From Herbiconiux sp. SALV-R1 (lineage in GTDB: Bacteria; Actinomycetota; Actinomycetes; Actinomycetales; Microbacteriaceae), in contig NZ_CP053344.1 of assembly GCF_013113715.1 (NCBI RefSeq), positions 2,914,001-2,978,000 on the forward strand: a stretch of 64,000 bases of DNA, written 5' to 3'. The notes beneath the pieces are model-generated. The model made no database searches and had not been told where the DNA came from. It saw only the letters and a program-made list of their open reading frames with translations. Below are positions 28,816-40,111 of the stretch, one piece after another. How positions within the stretch are numbered: the first letter of the stretch is position 1; the number at the start of each line of letters is the position of its first letter. Position numbers and translations under genes: made by a program.

Positions 28816-29598
28816 ATGCCGTCTTCGCCGGAGAGCCTTCCTCCTGCCCCGAACCGCGCCCCCGACTTCGACGACGACTTCAGCGGCGGTGGGGCGCCCG
28901 ACCCGCGGCGCTGGGTGGCCGCCTACCTCCCGCACTGGACCACTCCCGACCGAGCTCGCGCCCGCTTCGAGACCGTGACGACCGGCCTCCAGCTGCGCAT
29001 CGACGCCGACCAGCCCGACTGGCGCCCCGAAGACTCCCCGCTCCGGGTCTCGAACCTCCAGACGGGCCTCTTCTCGGGCCCGGTCGGCTCCCCGCGGGGC
29101 ACGCACCGCCACCGCGCCGACCTCACCGTGCGCACCGAGACACCCCTCGAGTTGCTCTTCGCACCCTCCCGGGGCCGGGTCGAGGTCACCGTCTCCGCCA
29201 GCCGGGATCCCGGATGCATGACCGCGGCCTGGCTCGTCGGCACCGAGCACCGCTCCCCCTCCGAATCGGGCGAGATCTGCCTGTTCGAGATCGACGCCGA
29301 GGCCGTCGGCGAGACCACCACGGCCGCCCGCACGGGCGTCAAGGCGCACCACGACCCCGCCCTCACGACCGACATGGCCGAGGTCGAGATCCCGCTCGAT
29401 GCTTCCCAACCCCACACCTGGACGGCGATCTGGGGCGACGGCGTCACGCTCATCGGATGCGAGGGCCGGGTCGTGCGCCGCATCGCCCGGTGCCCCGACT
29501 ACCCGCTGTTCCTCATGATCGACCTCTTCGAGACAGCACCACCCGGCGGCTCCTACCCCAAGTCGGCCACCGTGCATCGCGTGCGCGCCTGGCACTGA
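28816..29598 (+). CDS. GH16-like concanavalin-fold protein with altered active site
   Basis: 260 aa, no signal peptide. Beta-jelly-roll features of family 16 glycosidases: FDDDFSGGGAPDPRRW at the start, a substrate-loop region, and the motif GEICLFEID (about 152-160) where GH16 has E-x-D-x-x-E. Here the two Glu are kept but the middle Asp is Cys, and residues around it differ. Later PHTWTAIWGDGVTLIGCEG and YPLFLMIDLFE match the usual C-terminal strands. It may bind rather than cut glycans, or be catalytically altered. GGAGAG is about 10 nt upstream of the ATG. Upstream of the glycosyltransferase genes and likely connected to them. Confidence 0.7.
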   Translation: MPSSPESLPPAPNRAPDFDDDFSGGGAPDPRRWVAAYLPHWTTPDRARARFETVTTGLQLRIDADQPDWRPEDSPLRVSNLQTGLFSGPVGSPRGTHRHRADLTVRTETPLELLFAPSRGRVEVTVSASRDPGCMTAAWLVGTEHRSPSESGEICLFEIDAEAVGETTTAARTGVKAHHDPALTTDMAEVEIPLDASQPHTWTAIWGDGVTLIGCEGRVVRRIARCPDYPLFLMIDLFETAPPGGSYPKSATVHRVRAWH

Positions 29599-29717
29599 CC
29601 CGGGAACGGATGCGCGGCCCGCGAACGAGCAGGCGCGCGAGCGACCGACAAGCATGCCACGATGATTCGCCTTGTCAAGGCCGGTGCGAAGAGCGGGGAG
29701 CACCGTTCACTGGGAGA

Positions 29718-30890
29718 GTGACCGATACTGCCCGCCGAGCCCCCGCATCCGTTCTTCTCGACCGCGCGAGCGAGCCCGGGAGTTCCACGATCAGGGTCGC
29801 GTCGGTGCCCGCCGGTCACGTGTACGTGCGGCACCTGAGCCCGATCGGGGATGCGACGGCAACCGACCCCGTGCGCCGCCTGTCCGACCCCGACCCCGAC
29901 GACCCCCGCCGCTCGGCGGTCGAGCGCTGGTGGCCCCCGGCCATGCTGCAGGCGGAGTGGGTCGACGAGCACGCCGACGAGTTCGACGTCTTCCACCTGC
30001 AGTTCGGCTTCGACGCCCGCACCCCCGACGAGCTGCGCGAGCTGACGGATGCGCTCCGCCGCCACCGCAAGCCCTTCGTCTACACGGTGCACGACCTTCG
30101 CAACCCGCACCACCCCGACCGCCGCGAGCACGACGCCCAGCTCGACGTGCTCGTGCCGGCCGCCGACGCCCTGGTCACGCTGACGCCGGGGGCCGCCGCC
30201 GAGATCGAGCGGCGCTGGGGCCGCCGCGCGACCGTGCTGCCGCATCCGCACGTCGTCGAACTCGACACGCTGCGCCAGCGCCAGGACCGCCCGCCGAAGC
30301 TCGAGGCGCCCGCCTCGCCCGAGGGCCTCCGGCCGGTGCGGGTGGGCGTGCACGTGAAGAGCCTGCGCGCCAGCATGAACCCGGGCCCCGTGATCGAGAC
30401 GCTGGTGCGGGCCCTCGAGGGCCTTCCGGGCGCGGTGCTGCAGGTCGACGGCCACTCCGACGTGCTCGACGAGGGCGGCTCCCGCTACGACGCCGAGCTG
30501 GCGGGTCTGCTGCGCCGGCACGCCGAGGAGGGCGCGCTCGAGCTCCACGTCCACGACTTCTTCACCGACGACGAACTGTGGGCCTATCTCGACTCACTCG
30601 ACGTCTCGGTGCTGCCCTACCGTTTCGGCACCCACTCGGGCTGGCTCGAGGCCTGCCGCGACCTCGGCACCGCCGTCGTCGCGCCCGACTGCGGCTACTA
30701 CGCCGACCAGGGCCCCGTGCACTCGTACCACCACGACGAATCGGGCCTCGACGAGCAGTCGCTCGCGCGGGCCGTGCGCGCCGCCGCGAGCGAACCGCCT
30801 CCCCAGCCCGAGAATCCGGATGCTCGTGCACGTCAGCGAGAGACCGTCGCCACCACCCATCTCGCCCTGTACCGCGGACTTCTGTCGTGA
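29718..30890 (+). CDS. Glycosyltransferase, GT-B fold
   Basis: 390 aa from GTG 29718. N-terminal domain: VPAGHVYVRHLSPIG, FDVFHLQFGFDART, FVYTVHDLRNPHHPD, ALVTLTPGAAAEIERRWG; C-terminal Rossmann half: GVHVKSLRASMNPGPVIETLVRAL, LHVHDFFTDDELWAYLDSLDVSVLPYRFGTHSGWLEACRDLGTAVVAPDCGYY. This is GT4-like topology with an atypical nucleotide-sugar site. Donor and acceptor are unknown. The stop overlaps the next gene (GTGA), making it the first of five coupled genes. Confidence 0.85.
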   Translation: MTDTARRAPASVLLDRASEPGSSTIRVASVPAGHVYVRHLSPIGDATATDPVRRLSDPDPDDPRRSAVERWWPPAMLQAEWVDEHADEFDVFHLQFGFDARTPDELRELTDALRRHRKPFVYTVHDLRNPHHPDRREHDAQLDVLVPAADALVTLTPGAAAEIERRWGRRATVLPHPHVVELDTLRQRQDRPPKLEAPASPEGLRPVRVGVHVKSLRASMNPGPVIETLVRALEGLPGAVLQVDGHSDVLDEGGSRYDAELAGLLRRHAEEGALELHVHDFFTDDELWAYLDSLDVSVLPYRFGTHSGWLEACRDLGTAVVAPDCGYYADQGPVHSYHHDESGLDEQSLARAVRAAASEPPPQPENPDARARQRETVATTHLALYRGLLS

Positions 30891-31960
30891 GGGGGCTGCG
30901 GGTCTGCCTCATCGCCTCGAGTCGTTTCCCCATCGCCGAACCCTTCGCGGGCGGCCTCGAAGCCCACACCCATACCCTCGCCCGCGAGCTCACCGCCCGC
31001 GGCCACGAGGTGACCCTGTTCGCCTCGCCCGGCACCGATCCGGCGCTGTCGGCGACGACGCTGCCCGTGCATCCGTTCAGCTCGTCGGAGACGGCGCGCT
31101 CCGACGTGGCCGCACCACCCGAGCACTTCATGCAGGAGCACCACGCCTACCTCGGCCTCATGCTCGAGCTCGCCCGCTCGGGTGGCTCGCGCTTCGACGT
31201 GGTGCACAACAACAGCCTCCACCATCTGCCCGTGGCGATGTCGGAGACCCTCTCCATCCCGGTGGTGACGACGCTGCACACCCCGCCGACGCCGTGGCTG
31301 GAGTCGGCGATGCGGCTCACGCCGTCGGCGCGCTGCGTGGCGGTGAGCAGGTTCACGGCGCGGCAGTGGCGCGGCAGCACGTCGGCGGCGGTGATCTTGA
31401 ACGGGGTCGACACGGCGCGCTGGCGTCAGGGGCCGGGCGGCGACGCGGCGATCTGGTTCGGGCGACTCGTGGCCGAGAAGGCCCCGCATCTCGCGATCGC
31501 GGCGGCCAAGCTCGCGGGGCTGCGGCTCGACCTCGCGGGGCCGGTGTTCGACCGCGCCTACTTCACCGAGCACATCGAGCCGCATCTCGACGACCGCATC
31601 CGCTACCTCGGTCACCTCGGGTCGCGTGAGCTGGCGCACCACGTCGGGCGGGCCGCCGTGACCGCGGTCACCCCGACCTGGGAGGAGCCGTACGGATTGG
31701 TGGCCGCGGAGTCGATGTCGACCGGCACACCCGTGGCGGCGTTCGCCCGCGGCGCGCTGCCCGAGATCGTCTCGCCCGACAGCGGTCGGCTCGCCGCACC
31801 CGACGACGTCGACTCGCTCGCCGCCGCCCTGGTCGAGGCGTCGGCGCTTCCCCGAGACGCGGTGCGCCGGCACGCGCTGCGCACCTGCTCGATCGGCGCG
31901 ATGGTGGAGCGCTATGAGATGCTCTACGAGGAGTCGATCGCCCTGGAGCGCGCCGCATGA
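30887..31960 (+). CDS. Glycosyltransferase family 4
   Basis: 357 aa. Nucleotide-sugar GT-B enzyme with CLIASSRFPIAEPFAGGLEAHTHTLARELTARGH (donor-side glycine loop), VVHNNSLHHLP, VVTTLHTPPTP, VILNGVDTARW and the acceptor/donor motif EEPYGLVAAESMSTGTPVAAFARGALPEIV with the E-x7-E core. Donor sugar unknown. GTG at 30887 overlaps the preceding stop; its own TGA (31958-31960) overlaps a 6-codon mini-ORF that leads to the next glycosyltransferase. Confidence 0.94.
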   Translation: MRGLRVCLIASSRFPIAEPFAGGLEAHTHTLARELTARGHEVTLFASPGTDPALSATTLPVHPFSSSETARSDVAAPPEHFMQEHHAYLGLMLELARSGGSRFDVVHNNSLHHLPVAMSETLSIPVVTTLHTPPTPWLESAMRLTPSARCVAVSRFTARQWRGSTSAAVILNGVDTARWRQGPGGDAAIWFGRLVAEKAPHLAIAAAKLAGLRLDLAGPVFDRAYFTEHIEPHLDDRIRYLGHLGSRELAHHVGRAAVTAVTPTWEEPYGLVAAESMSTGTPVAAFARGALPEIVSPDSGRLAAPDDVDSLAAALVEASALPRDAVRRHALRTCSIGAMVERYEMLYEESIALERAA

Positions 31961-31985
31961 TCGGGTACGCCGCATGATCGGGTAC
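31952..31985. repeat. 17-bp tandem duplication creating a coupling mini-ORF
   Basis: GCCGCATGATCGGGTAC occurs twice back to back (31952-31968 and 31969-31985). The first ATG (31957) opens MIGYAA and stops at 31975-31977, a TGA that overlaps the true start ATG at 31974. So the duplication inserted a mini-ORF but kept the ATGA chain. Confidence 0.85.
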
Positions 31986-33188
31986 TACGTGCACCACGTG
32001 GGTCAGGGGCACGCCGTGCGCGCCACGGCCATCGCCGCCCACCTCGACGAGCCCGTCACCGGCCTGTCGTCGCTGCCCAAACCGGCCGGCTGGCGGGGCC
32101 CGTGGGTGCAGCTGCCGCTCGACGACACCGAGCCGGTCGACCGGTCGACGACGGATGCGGACGGCCGGCTGCACTGGGTTCCGTTGCGGCACGAGGGGTT
32201 GCGCAAGCGCATGGCGCGCATCGCGGCGTGGATCGATCGCGCGGGCCCGTCGGCCCTCGTCTCCGACGTCTCGGTCGAGGTCGCGCTCCTGGCGCGGTTG
32301 CACGGGGTGCCGGTGGTGTCGTTCGCCCTGCCCGGGCGGCGCGACGACGAGGCGCACCGGCTGGGGTTCGCGGCGTCGAGCCTGGTGCTCTCGGCCTGGC
32401 CGGCGGAGGCGGAAGGGATGCTCGACGGGCTCGACGAGGCGGCGCGGTCGCGGCACGTGCCGGTCGGGGCCATCTCGCGCTTCGCGACGGCAGCAGGGAA
32501 GCACGCCCGGCCGTTCCAGTCGGCGGCTCCGAAGCGGCGGCCGCGCGTGCTCGTGCTGAACGGTCGCGGTGGAGGCGGGGTCTCCGACGACGCGCTCGAG
32601 CGCGCCCGCCGCGCGGCGCCCGGGTGGGACTGGACCCTCGTCGGCGGCGAGGCGTCGTGGGTCGACGACCCATGGCCGCTGCTGCGCCGCACCGACGTCG
32701 TGGTGACCCACGCGGGGCAGGGCGCGATCGCCGACGTGTCGGCGGCGCGCCGCCCGGCCGTCGTCATCCCGCAGAACCGCCCCCACGACGAGCAGCGGCA
32801 CACGGCTGCCGTGCTCGCGGCGGGCGAGTGGCCCGCCGTGGTCACCGACTCCTTCGACACCGCCGACTGGGGCGAGCTGCTCACCGAGGCGTGCGAGCGC
32901 GACGGTGCCGCCTGGCGCACCTGGAACGACGGCCGGGGCGCCGCGCGCGCGGCGGCCGCGATCGCGACCGTCGCGTCGGGCGGGCAGGCCGTCGCGAGCG
33001 CTCACGACGCCGGGAGCGACAGCGCACGCGCAGCGGGTGCCGAGCGCGCAGCGGGTGCCGGGCGCGTCGCCACACGCGCAGCCGGTGCCGAGCGCGACGC
33101 CGCACCCGCAGCCGGTGCCGAGCGCGCACCGGGTCCCGCCGGGCCCTCCGACCCCTCCCCCGAGCCACCTGTGGAGATCGCGTCATGA
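31974..33188 (+). CDS. Glycosyltransferase (GT28/MurG-like)
   Basis: 404 aa. N-terminal GYYVHHVGQGHAVRATAIAAHL is the MurG/GT28-type glycine motif; the C-terminal domain carries VLVLNGRGGGG, VVVTHAGQGAIADVSAARRPAVVIPQNRPHDEQ, the donor-binding region of UDP-sugar GT28 enzymes. Predicted UDP-sugar transferase; substrate unknown. From about residue 342 a low-complexity Ala/Glu/Arg/Pro tail repeats RAAGAER-like units to the end. The true ATG is 31974, the second in a 17-bp duplication. The stop overlaps the next gene (ATGA). Confidence 0.88.
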   Translation: MIGYYVHHVGQGHAVRATAIAAHLDEPVTGLSSLPKPAGWRGPWVQLPLDDTEPVDRSTTDADGRLHWVPLRHEGLRKRMARIAAWIDRAGPSALVSDVSVEVALLARLHGVPVVSFALPGRRDDEAHRLGFAASSLVLSAWPAEAEGMLDGLDEAARSRHVPVGAISRFATAAGKHARPFQSAAPKRRPRVLVLNGRGGGGVSDDALERARRAAPGWDWTLVGGEASWVDDPWPLLRRTDVVVTHAGQGAIADVSAARRPAVVIPQNRPHDEQRHTAAVLAAGEWPAVVTDSFDTADWGELLTEACERDGAAWRTWNDGRGAARAAAAIATVASGGQAVASAHDAGSDSARAAGAERAAGAGRVATRAAGAERDAAPAAGAERAPGPAGPSDPSPEPPVEIAS

Positions 33189-34027
33189 CCCGCACCGCCG
33201 TCATCACCGTGGTGCGGGGGCGCCACGACCACCTCACCCTGCAGCGCGAGGCGCTCGCCCGGCCGGGTGCGCATCCGCTGCTGCACGTGGTGGTCGCCAT
33301 GGGCGACCCGGGGCTCGAGGCGCTGCCGGCGCTCGACCACCCCGATGTCGTCGTGAGGCACGTGCCCGCGGGCCGCACGCTGCCGCTCGCCCGCGCCCGC
33401 AACGTGGGCGCCGCCACCGCGGCCCTGCACGGCGCCTCGACCTTCGTGTTCCTCGACGTCGACTGCGTTCCCGCCCCGGGTGCGGTGGAGGCGTACGCGG
33501 CGGCAGCCGAGCATCCGGCCACCGCAGACCGGCTGCTCTGCGGCCCGGTCACCTACCTCCCGGCGCCGGGGCCCGGCGGCTATCGTCTCGACGAGCTGCC
33601 CGCCCTCGACAGCCCGCATGCCGCCAGGCCCGCCCCGGCACCAGGAGAGGTGCAGCTCGGCGGGCCGCACGAGCTGTTCTGGTCGCTCTCGTTCGCTCTC
33701 ACCCACGAGGTGTGGCAGCGCCTCGGCGGCTTCCACGAGGGCTACTCGGGCTACGGCGGCGAAGACACCGACGTCGCCTTCACGGCACGGATGCGCGGCG
33801 TCGAGCTCGCCTGGATCGGCTCCGCCCGCGCGTACCACCAGCACCATCCCGTGCAGAGTCCACCGGTCGAGCACCTCGACGACATCCTGCGCAACGCCCG
33901 CACCTTCCATGAGCGCTGGGGCAGCTGGCCGATGCAGGGCTGGCTCGACCAGTTCGAACGTGCCGGGCTCGTGCAGCGCGACGCCGACGGGTATCGGCGG
34001 CGGCCCGTCGTCTCCGACGCCGCGTGA
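33185..34027 (+). CDS. Glycosyltransferase family 2 (galactosyltransferase-like)
   Basis: 280 aa GT-A fold. RTLPLARARNVGAATAAL, then FVFLDVDCVPAPGAV with the DxD metal site, and the Glyco_transf_7C-like segment FALTHEVWQRLGGFHEGYSGYGGEDTDVAFTAR (catalytic base E/D in GGEDTD). The family contains galactosyltransferases; donor unassigned here. ATG 33185 overlaps the GT28 stop; GTG of the ATP-grasp gene overlaps its own stop. Confidence 0.93.
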   Translation: MTRTAVITVVRGRHDHLTLQREALARPGAHPLLHVVVAMGDPGLEALPALDHPDVVVRHVPAGRTLPLARARNVGAATAALHGASTFVFLDVDCVPAPGAVEAYAAAAEHPATADRLLCGPVTYLPAPGPGGYRLDELPALDSPHAARPAPAPGEVQLGGPHELFWSLSFALTHEVWQRLGGFHEGYSGYGGEDTDVAFTARMRGVELAWIGSARAYHQHHPVQSPPVEHLDDILRNARTFHERWGSWPMQGWLDQFERAGLVQRDADGYRRRPVVSDAA

Positions 34028-34935
34028 GACACGGGCAGAGGAACGACCCGCGCGCGAAGCGCCGGGAGCGGAGTCGCTGGGTACGGCTCTGGCGGCTGTG
34101 GCGCACCCGCCGCCCGGTCACCTTCACCGAGAAGGTGAGGTACAAGATGCTGCGCGACCATCGCGAGCTTCTCGTCACCTTCGCCGACAAGGCCGCCGTG
34201 CGCGACTACGTCGCCACCCGCATCGGCGCCGAGCACCTGCCGCACGCGTTCGCCGTCATCGACGACCCGGCGCGGCTGCGCGAGCTGCGGCTGCCCGACC
34301 GCTTCGTGGTGAAGCCGACCCACGGCAGCGGGGCGGCCATCGTGGTGAGCCCGGAGGCTCCCGCCGACGCCGAGCTCCCCGAGGCGCGGTGGAGCTGGGT
34401 GTATCGGCACGTGCGCCCCGAAGCCGCCGATCGCGACCGGCTGGCGGCGATCGGCGCGCACTGGTCGAGTCAGCTCTACGGGCAGGGGCCCAACCGCGAG
34501 TGGGCCTACGGGCAGGTTGCGCCACGCATCCTGATCGAGGAGATGCTGACGGGCGAGGGCGGCGGCATCCCCGACGACTTCAAGCTGTTCGTGTTCCACG
34601 GGCGGTGCCACTTCATCCAGGTCGACACCGCCCGCTTCGCCGGCCGCACGCAAGACTTCTACACGCCCGACTGGGAGCATCTGCCGCTGAGTGGCGGTCC
34701 ACCCTGGGCCGACCCGCCCCGCTCCCGCCCCGACCGGCTCGACACCCTCATCGAGCTCGCCGAGCGCCTCGGCGCGGAGACCGACTTCGTACGCGTCGAC
34801 CTCTACCTGCTGCCCGACCGCATCGTGTTCGGCGAGCTCACGAGCTACCCCGCCGGCGGTGACAGCCCCTTCCACCCGGTGTCGTTCGACGCGGAGTTCG
34901 GGCGACCGTGGAAGGTGCCGCGGCGCTACCGCTGA
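34024..34935 (+). CDS. TupA-like ATP-grasp ligase
   Basis: 303 aa. ATP-grasp features: FTEKVRYKMLRDHRELLVTFADK at the N-terminus (TupA family), FVVKPTHGSGAAIVV (nucleotide-binding lysine and glycine loop), ILIEEMLTGEGGGIPDDFKLFVFHG, and VRVDLYLLPDRIVFGELTSYPAGG. The characterised relatives act in teichuronopeptide or capsule glycan assembly, forming amide bonds between glycan and amino acids. Here it closes a chain of four coupled glycosyltransferases, suggesting an amino-acid-modified cell-surface glycan. Starts at GTG 34024. Confidence 0.87.
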   Translation: MRHGQRNDPRAKRRERSRWVRLWRLWRTRRPVTFTEKVRYKMLRDHRELLVTFADKAAVRDYVATRIGAEHLPHAFAVIDDPARLRELRLPDRFVVKPTHGSGAAIVVSPEAPADAELPEARWSWVYRHVRPEAADRDRLAAIGAHWSSQLYGQGPNREWAYGQVAPRILIEEMLTGEGGGIPDDFKLFVFHGRCHFIQVDTARFAGRTQDFYTPDWEHLPLSGGPPWADPPRSRPDRLDTLIELAERLGAETDFVRVDLYLLPDRIVFGELTSYPAGGDSPFHPVSFDAEFGRPWKVPRRYR

Positions 34936-38851: not shown

Positions 38852-40111
38852 TCATCTCGTGAGCTCGGGCACCCGCCAGGGCCTCACGATGAGCCAGAGC
38901 GACAGGATGCTCACCACGGCCGTTCCCGCCATGACGGCGGCCATCGGTACGGCGCTGCCGATGCCGAGCACGCCGACCAGCGGTGAGATGAGGCCGGCCA
39001 AGCCGAAGTTCACGGCGCCGAGCAGCGACGCCGCCGTGCCGGCCTCATGGCCGTGGTCGTTCAGGGCGAGCACCTGCACGCACGGGAAGGTGAGCCCGCA
39101 GGCGAAGATGAAGAACCACAGCGGCACCAGCGTGCCCCAGAGGCCCAGCTGCAACTCGGAGAACAGCACGATGAGCCCCGCCATGGCGACGAGAAGCACG
39201 GTGGAGACCGCGATGATCCACTGCGGACCGAACCAGCGGGTGAGGCGGGAGCTGAGCTGCACGCCGCCCACGATGCCGAGCGAGTTCACGGCGAACAGCA
39301 CCCCGTACTGCTGCGGGTCGAAGCCGTAGACCTGCTGGAACAGGAAGGAGCTCGCCGAGAGGTAGGAGAACAGACCCGAGAAGGTCATGCCGCCGATGAG
39401 GGCCACGCCGACGAAGACGGGGTCGGTGAGCACGGCGCGATAGCGCTGCCCGGCGGTGGCATGGCCGGCGTCGTGGCGGCGTTCGGGGGGCAGCGTCTCG
39501 CGGATGCCGATCGCCACGACGGTGATGACGATCGCCCCGTAGGCGGCGAGCACCCAGAAGATGCCGCGCCAGTCGACGACGAGCAGCAGCTGCGAGCCGA
39601 TGAGCGGCGCGAGGATGGGGGCGAGGCCCGACACCAGTGCCAGCCGGGAGAGCATCAGCACGAGTGGGCGGCCGCCGAACAGGTCGCGCACCATCGCCAT
39701 CGCGACCACGGCGCCCGCCGCGGCGCCCATGCCCTGCAGCACGCGGAACACGCCGAGGCTCCAGATCTCGGGAGCCACGGCCGCGCCCACGCAGGCCACC
39801 ACGTGCACCGCGGTGGCGACGAGGATGGGCTTGCGCCGCCCGATGCGGTCGCTCAGCGGGCCCATCACGAGCTGGCCCAGCGCGAAGCCGACCGTGGTGC
39901 CGGTGAGGGTGAGCTGGATCATCGCGGCCGGTACGTCGAAGTCGGCCTCGAGTGTGGGGAACGCGGGGAGGTAGAGGTCGATCGTGAAGGGGCCGAGCGC
40001 CGTGAGGGCGCCGAGGATGACGATGTACAGCAGGCGCTGGCGCAGGGTGAGGGAGTCACCGGGATGCACCACGGTGGTCGCGGAGAGGGAGGCGGTGGAG
40101 GCGGTGGTCAC
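38852..40111 (-). CDS. Bcr/CflA-type multidrug MFS exporter
   Basis: 419 aa, 12 helices. FTIDLYLPAFPTLEADF is the family's helix-1 signature; MGPLSDRIGRRKPIL is the loop 2-3 motif, RVLQGMGAAAGAVVAMAMVRDL covers helix 4-5. Proton-driven drug or sulphonamide-type exporter. Starts at GTG 40111; no Shine-Dalgarno or clear -10 was found there, so the exact start is uncertain. Confidence 0.9.
   Translation of the reverse strand: MTTASTASLSATTVVHPGDSLTLRQRLLYIVILGALTALGPFTIDLYLPAFPTLEADFDVPAAMIQLTLTGTTVGFALGQLVMGPLSDRIGRRKPILVATAVHVVACVGAAVAPEIWSLGVFRVLQGMGAAAGAVVAMAMVRDLFGGRPLVLMLSRLALVSGLAPILAPLIGSQLLLVVDWRGIFWVLAAYGAIVITVVAIGIRETLPPERRHDAGHATAGQRYRAVLTDPVFVGVALIGGMTFSGLFSYLSASSFLFQQVYGFDPQQYGVLFAVNSLGIVGGVQLSSRLTRWFGPQWIIAVSTVLLVAMAGLIVLFSELQLGLWGTLVPLWFFIFACGLTFPCVQVLALNDHGHEAGTAASLLGAVNFGLAGLISPLVGVLGIGSAVPMAAVMAGTAVVSILSLWLIVRPWRVPELTR

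Follow-up and report, generated by a model that had tools for sequence, protein, structure and literature searches.

In the capsule of Campylobacter jejuni, the TupA-like protein Cj1438C amidates glucuronic acid, according to the available parts of two reports (PMC11800379, PMC12409886). TupA of Bacillus halodurans, from which the Pfam family of these ATP-grasp ligases takes its name, belongs to the teichuronopeptide system, whose product is described in the text available as a polymer of glutamate and glucuronate. A gene of the same family, here called TUP, closes a row of five genes in Herbiconiux sp. SALV-R1, an actinobacterium of the Microbacteriaceae with a 4.5 Mb genome in two contigs. 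The row spans about 29718-34935 on the + strand of the window, that is, the whole stretch of 64,000 nucleotides analyzed (contig NZ_CP053344.1, positions 2,914,001 to 2,978,000), and its other members are four glycosyltransferase-like genes, GTA, GTB, GTC, and GTD. The conserved unit is this quartet, or its GTB-GTC-GTD core, and TUP is an accessory to it; close relatives of TUP are found only together with GTD in the samples taken. The chances stand about even, in our judgment, that the ligase amidates a cytoplasmically built and possibly stress-linked glycan made by the quartet and a second gene set encoded elsewhere in the genome. The five genes are as follows.

29718..30890, + strand: GTA, GT4-like glycosyltransferase of predicted GT-B fold; start uncertain (GTG at 29718 or at 29805)
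30887..31960, + strand: GTB, GT4 family glycosyltransferase with a GTG start (Pfam PF13439, 77.9 bits; PF00534, 55.6 bits)
31974..33188, + strand: GTC, GT28/GT1-like glycosyltransferase (PF04101, 28.8 bits against a cut-off of 22)
33185..34027, + strand: GTD, GT-A type glycosyltransferase, GT2/GT7C-like (PF02709, 26.6 bits against a cut-off of 23)
34024..34935, + strand: TUP, TupA-like ATP-grasp ligase with a GTG start (PF14305, 113.1 bits against a cut-off of 25)

The C. jejuni capsule locus (Cj1438 and its HS:19 relatives) resembles this row in combining a TupA-like ATP-grasp ligase with a GT2-type transferase acting on a glycan. In C. jejuni, however, one protein carries both activities, the ligase forming a domain within the transferase, whereas TUP and GTD are separate open reading frames (ORFs) with a 4-bp overlap and TUP is optional. 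The C. jejuni cluster is also described, in the parts available, as making serinol- or ethanolamine-phosphate and UDP-glucuronic acid; no gene for these was found among the 12 neighbors of the row run against Pfam (26-43.6 kb of the window; the genome was not searched). Unlike the teichuronopeptide system, the row has no polyglutamate gene among its annotated neighbors. A flippase, polymerase, or exporter, as in Wzx/Wzy- or ABC-dependent clusters, is likewise missing from the row itself and from these neighbors. A nucleotide-sugar gene was likewise not seen in the row or these 12 neighbors, again with the genome not searched, so the initial annotation of this DNA, which had reported neither flippase, polymerase, nor nucleotide-sugar gene, holds over that range. 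It had also known of no named system of the same composition, and none was recognized in the open-licence literature, as judged by titles and the beginnings of abstracts. Exopolysaccharide clusters of Actinoplanes (PMC13390465) were considered and set aside, as the main text available mentions neither TupA nor ATP-grasp nor WcbI.

The row itself is confirmed: four genes resembling glycosyltransferases are followed on the + strand by an ATP-grasp gene of the TupA type. The four transferases had been assigned to four types, which is true of GTC and GTD but not of GTA and GTB, both of which are GT4-like. Of 44 distinct loci in which quartet members were found, 31 have the full order GTA-GTB-GTC-GTD, and at the other 13 a called member is missing or the order is C-D-B. 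The 44 loci are those fetched, with two duplicates dropped, and cover 20 of the 28 genomes in which the Microbacteriaceae survey described below found GTD. Their genes were called by a codon-score script and the quartet members assigned by BLASTP, so that a gene absent from a locus may be a miscall or lie beyond a contig end. Homologs of GTB are found in Actinomycetota and Alphaproteobacteria. In Rhodococcus EPR-157, GTA, GTC, and GTD are present at one locus (L129) with no GTB seen, and a GTB homolog adjoins TUP on another contig (L027).

Adjacent genes of the quartet overlap by 4 bp at 32 of 32 scored junctions between GTA and GTB, at 34 of 36 between GTB and GTC (the window included), and at 38 of 42 between GTC and GTD; the rearranged D-B junction has the same overlap in 3 of 3 scored cases. 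Pairs more than 200 bases apart or encoded on opposite strands were left out of the scoring; the D-B pair at L108, the fourth of its kind, is among those too far apart, as are several other junctions. Such overlaps had been reported to link all five genes of the window. They do so at 30887-30890 (GTA/GTB), 33185-33188 (GTC/GTD), and 34024-34027 (GTD/TUP), but GTB and GTC are separated by a 13-base gap (GTB stop at 31960, GTC start at 31974), which makes the window one of the two exceptions among the 36. A repeat search found one further feature at this junction.

31951..31984, + strand: 17-bp tandem duplication at the GTB/GTC junction

It is a perfect direct repeat (31951-31967 and 31968-31984) that covers the stop of GTB and the start of GTC. 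The recurrence of order and overlaps across genera is more than chance, and the overlapping ends suggest that the quartet genes may be translationally coupled.

TUP covers positions 1-238 of the 241 positions of the PF14305 (ATPgrasp_TupA) profile. Its predicted structure has a mean confidence (pLDDT, predicted local distance difference test) of 79.8, and the 50 PDB matches listed for this model are all of the ATP-grasp type by title; searches against PDB sequences, by protein and by profile, gave no match. Residues K97, E172, D259, and E271, which we take to be ATP or metal binders, are invariant in 17 aligned members (alignment A4). The position of TUP changes from genome to genome. The five-gene order with the ligase last, looked for in other genomes, was found only in the window and at L038 (genome G014) among the loci read. 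TUP stands 5' of GTA in L026 and L033. In L019, L023, and L034 it is encoded on the opposite strand, facing the quartet (with an extra GT4 gene between them in L019 and L023), and in L037 it lies within a permuted set. Scattering of the genes in relatives, which would have counted against the reading of the initial annotation, is true of the ligase and mostly untrue of the quartet. The five genes that it had read as a pathway do reflect a real unit, but the conserved part is the quartet, the ligase is accessory, and a likely second half lies 102-115 kb away. The surroundings of TUP were read for up to 10 kb a side, or less at contig ends, in a sample of 27 genomes selected for having a TUP relative. 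Six of these 27 loci lie by the quartet, three by members of the second set (X5-X7, see below) only, and one by a lone GTB homolog; another is that of a distant alphaproteobacterial protein (35% identical). At one locus (L029), recorded as Kitasatospora arboriphila NRRL B-24581, the neighborhood of TUP matches those of two Williamsia records, and the name may be wrong.

The association of TUP with the quartet and the second set, together called the module here, is seen in co-inheritance. In a survey of 150 genomes of Microbacteriaceae (taken as the same genomes across the gene surveys, from handles and totals), GTD was found in 28, X5 in 25, WcbI in 22, and TUP in 13, and all 25 X5 genomes and all 22 WcbI genomes are GTD-positive. 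Scores of TUP fall into two groups: 12 genomes with at least 490 bits, all of them GTD-positive, and G130 with 226 bits, which is GTD-negative. With the window genome left out, GTD occurs in all 11 TUP genomes and in 16 of the 138 remaining ones (Fisher p 9e-10, or 1e-8 when G130 is counted as a TUP genome). In a class-wide sample of 394 genomes, GTD is present in 53 and TUP in 15; the five with at least 500 bits, the window genome included, are all GTD-positive, whereas GTD accompanies only 1 of 10 TUP relatives with 291 bits or less (and not the single one of the family survey). In G171 and G550 the GTD match is split, and the gene may be broken. Within the genus, a protein search found TUP in 7 of 16 genomes, all seven among the 11 that have GTD. 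Of the 27 genomes selected for a TUP relative, 26 also have GTD; the one without it is that of the alphaproteobacterial protein mentioned above. A better controlled comparison comes from five genera (g54, g58, g73, g89, and g94), which each include one sampled species with both TUP and GTD and another with neither, and none with TUP alone, G130 aside. TUP and GTD are more than 300 kb apart in three and on different contigs in three of the 12 family cases, although different contigs of a draft may still be neighbors.

The second set consists of X7 (WcbI), X6 (GT4-like), and X5 (GT2), which often face the quartet in other genomes. In the genome of the window, X7-X6-X5 lies at 3060297-3064023 of the first contig (G000:C1). 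The stretch upstream of it (3051255-3060249) encodes an acyl-CoA-dehydrogenase-like protein (32.4 bits, just under the cut-off of 33.3), a PIG-L+NodS-like fusion, a GT2 protein, a Zn-dependent alcohol dehydrogenase, a small ORF, MftF (414.3 bits against a cut-off of 280), and a thiamine-pyrophosphate enzyme. This MftF gene (L048:4252-5715, - strand) is divergent from the row of thiamine-pyrophosphate enzyme, WcbI, X6, and X5. A link to mycofactocin was considered and rejected: GTD resembles MftF weakly (26.1 bits with model TIGR03965, far under the cut-off of 280), BLASTP at 1e-8 found no counterpart of the second-locus MftF in the proteins encoded at other loci, and no other mycofactocin gene was recognized by eye in L048 or L157, where no dedicated search was made.

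The same types of partner recur in another phylum. On a Novosphingobium plasmid (L151), the row runs GTB, a glycosyltransferase, GTC, acyl-CoA dehydrogenase, PIG-L, NodS-like protein, and GTD. BLASTP gives best identities of 49-52% for GTB, 34-35% for GTC, and 42-44% for GTD, and the same row stands, by annotation only, on a Sphingobium plasmid and a second Novosphingobium plasmid. It shares its partner types with the second locus of the window genome and differs in that no GTA and no TupA-like gene were found in the sphingomonad stretches read. The acyl-CoA-dehydrogenase-like proteins of the two phyla are 31% identical over 302 columns, and the NodS-like parts are 34-39% identical. We know of no product for the sphingomonad row. 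Homologs of the core also stand in rows on plasmids of Rhodococcus, Paracoccus, and Arthrobacter, and the annotated plasmid neighbors include catalase, DUF3618, topoisomerase IB, and Zn-dependent alcohol dehydrogenase. On the Paracoccus plasmid (L152:6951-8966), a fused GT4 and sucrose-phosphate-phosphatase-like protein directly precedes the homologs of GTC, GTD, and GTB. The general-stress regulon of Sphingomonas melonis Fr1, controlled by EcfG, in the part of its description available, contains a transferase operon (#3505-#3509, with #3505 a putative indirect target) as well as a Zn-dependent alcohol dehydrogenase, catalase, and topoisomerase IB (PMC6599016). That operon is like the module in being a row of transferases, and the three other gene types of the regulon are also seen near the module. 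It is possible, though doubtful, that the GTB-GTC-GTD core represents a widespread undescribed pathway of Actinomycetota and sphingomonads, producing a stress-induced oligosaccharide or glycolipid that is de-N-acetylated by PIG-L and methylated by NodS-like proteins in the manner of a Nod factor, acylated by WcbI, and, in some actinobacteria, amidated by a TupA-like ligase of its own.

In our proposal, the transferases of the quartet would build an oligosaccharide in the cytoplasm, and the second set would join in with X6, X5, the WcbI-like X7, and the nearby acyl-CoA-dehydrogenase-like, PIG-L/NodS-like, and GT2 proteins. TUP would act as an accessory on the product of this module, using ATP to activate a carboxylate and joining it to an amine; the likeliest reaction would couple the carboxylate of a uronic acid to an amino compound, as in the Campylobacter capsule. 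Cytoplasmic assembly and amidation by TUP are proposed because of the ATP-grasp fold, the invariant residues, the precedent of Cj1438C, and the low hydropathy of the proteins (maximum 19-residue mean 1.60, a borderline value, for GTC, and at most 1.32 for GTA, GTB, GTD, and TUP). We infer that the substrate of TUP is the module product and that this product is stress-linked; the donor sugars, the amine, and the acceptor are guesses. The attachment of amino acids to a surface glycan or glycopeptide, suggested for the ligase in the initial annotation, stands in so far as TUP, by analogy with the available description of Cj1438C, would belong to a type of enzyme known to form amide bonds on glycans; surface location and an amino acid as the partner would each be a further step of interpretation.

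Several observations weigh against this proposal. Several quartet loci lack GTA, as do the alphaproteobacterial rows, and 3 of 28 GTD genomes of the family survey lack X5 and 6 of 28 lack WcbI. The module does not need the ligase, because TUP is absent from 16 of the 28. At 16 of the 27 TUP loci, the flanking DNA read, short in some cases, has no module member. The TUP model matches its PDB relatives with low TM-scores (0.35-0.46). Across the two phyla, PIG-L aligns over 40 residues only, and the Novosphingobium PIG-L and acyl-CoA dehydrogenase found nothing at 1e-10 among the proteins of the loci compared. The p values overstate independence because the sampled genomes are relatives of one another and the four sets share members, and the control for co-occurrence is a weak, internal one, the distant relatives of TUP, with no unrelated accessory gene. 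UDP-sugar dehydrogenases have a match in 148 of the 150 family genomes (139 over the cut-off), so that the supply of UDP-glucuronate is useless as a discriminating test.

Some of these points fit other explanations as well. The 16 TUP loci without module members, and the fact that no unrelated accessory gene was compared for the same pattern, would agree with TUP standing beside the quartet by chance and serving another target, in which case shared habitat or genome size would account for the co-occurrence. We consider this very improbable in view of the nesting of TUP within GTD genomes in four overlapping samples, the five within-genus contrasts, the distant TUP relatives that break the rule, and the GTB homolog that adjoins TUP in Rhodococcus. 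An ordinary surface polysaccharide is another candidate: the quartet would add sugars to a glycan of the cell wall or capsule, the flippase and polymerase genes would lie elsewhere in the genome, and TUP would decorate this glycan. Pfam labels WcbI a polysaccharide biosynthesis enzyme, and the available descriptions tie TupA to a cell-wall polymer in B. halodurans and a TupA-like domain to amidation of the C. jejuni capsule (PMC11800379, PMC12409886). The lack of a flippase, polymerase, or exporter among the annotated neighbors in the window tells against it, and by eye none recurs near the module at other loci, where most neighbors were not run against Pfam and the genome was not searched. 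On balance, such a polysaccharide seems to us quite unlikely.

A chemistry unlike that of the Campylobacter capsule can also be imagined. Mycothiol synthesis combines a GT4 transferase, a PIG-L enzyme, and a ligase. By the same logic, TUP might join the carboxylate of an amino acid to an amino-sugar amine exposed by PIG-L, and the product would be a soluble small molecule or a glycolipid, not a polymer. This would suit the genes found 5-9 kb upstream of X7-X6-X5 (acyl-CoA-dehydrogenase-like, PIG-L+NodS-like fusion, and GT2), the presence of the same gene types in one row with the GTB, GTC, and GTD homologs of Novosphingobium, the match of the predicted GTA fold to MshA and BshA among others, and the neighbors without flippase or polymerase. 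GT4 folds are, however, similar whatever the product, and the sphingomonad stretches read have no TupA-like gene. Among the actinobacterial loci compared, PIG-L/NodS-like genes were found by BLASTP near the module in L048/L157 and L136, with a NodS-like piece in L037, and not in the others; the poor agreement of PIG-L and acyl-CoA dehydrogenase between the phyla counts against this chemistry too. We hold it to be unlikely, and keep amidation of a glycan of the quartet and the second set as the preferred reading.

As for the individual transferases, GTA scores 23.3 bits with PF13439, under the cut-off of 28.5, and a comparison with PDB sequences gave three chance-like matches. Its predicted fold is GT-B-like, with glycogen synthases and a mycobacterial polysaccharide mannosyltransferase also among the best PDB matches. 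In alignment A2, Phe or His replaces the first Glu of what we take to be the GT4 E-x7-E motif in 8 of 8 members. GTB reaches 49.5 bits with the model of the MSMEG_0565 transferase (TIGR04047), under the cut-off of 259.85. A profile search with GTC gave matches to the structures of YjiC and MurG; its tail (33020-33150 of the window) is of low complexity and rich in Ala-Gly-Ala-Glu-Arg, and the tails of relatives vary in length and content (alignment A3). GTD was aligned with its relatives (alignment A1), and a profile search links it to the chondroitin synthase structures 2z86/2z87 (E 7.7e-10).

The cluster had been taken to start at 28816, which is the start of a different gene, 5' of the row and outside the conserved unit.

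28816..29598, + strand: GH16-like ORF (PF00722, 19.2 bits, below the cut-off of 22)

It was dropped as a cluster member for want of conservation, being absent beside the quartet of L038, the nearest relative read. Its putative catalytic motif is E-I-C-L-F-E, with Cys at the site where Asp is usual, and the ORF is possibly degenerate. The 12 neighbors run against Pfam are a hydrolase, a gene without match, LysE, a CGNR zinc finger protein, GNAT, enolase-like and saccharopine-dehydrogenase-like proteins, PAP2, MFS (38852-40111, on the opposite strand), DeoR, and a GalT-GalK pair 6-8.6 kb downstream of the row. At other loci, the module or the ligase standing alone is repeatedly accompanied by DUF7882 genes (a family assignment tested on one member) and by small genes judged GAF-like by eye, and these surroundings (L016, L019, L025, and others) resemble stress islands.

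The protein families involved are known; their combination, and a ligase confined in these samples to genomes with the module, are new as far as the literature searched shows. Co-inheritance names a set of genes for study. The module is common in the class, yet the same searches brought up no product assigned to it, and the presence or absence of the ligase in sister species offers a natural comparison. For TupA-like ligases, the finding provides an actinobacterial setting in which to search for substrates. Should the product prove to be linked to stress, it could account for some of the ability of these organisms to survive drying or oxidation.

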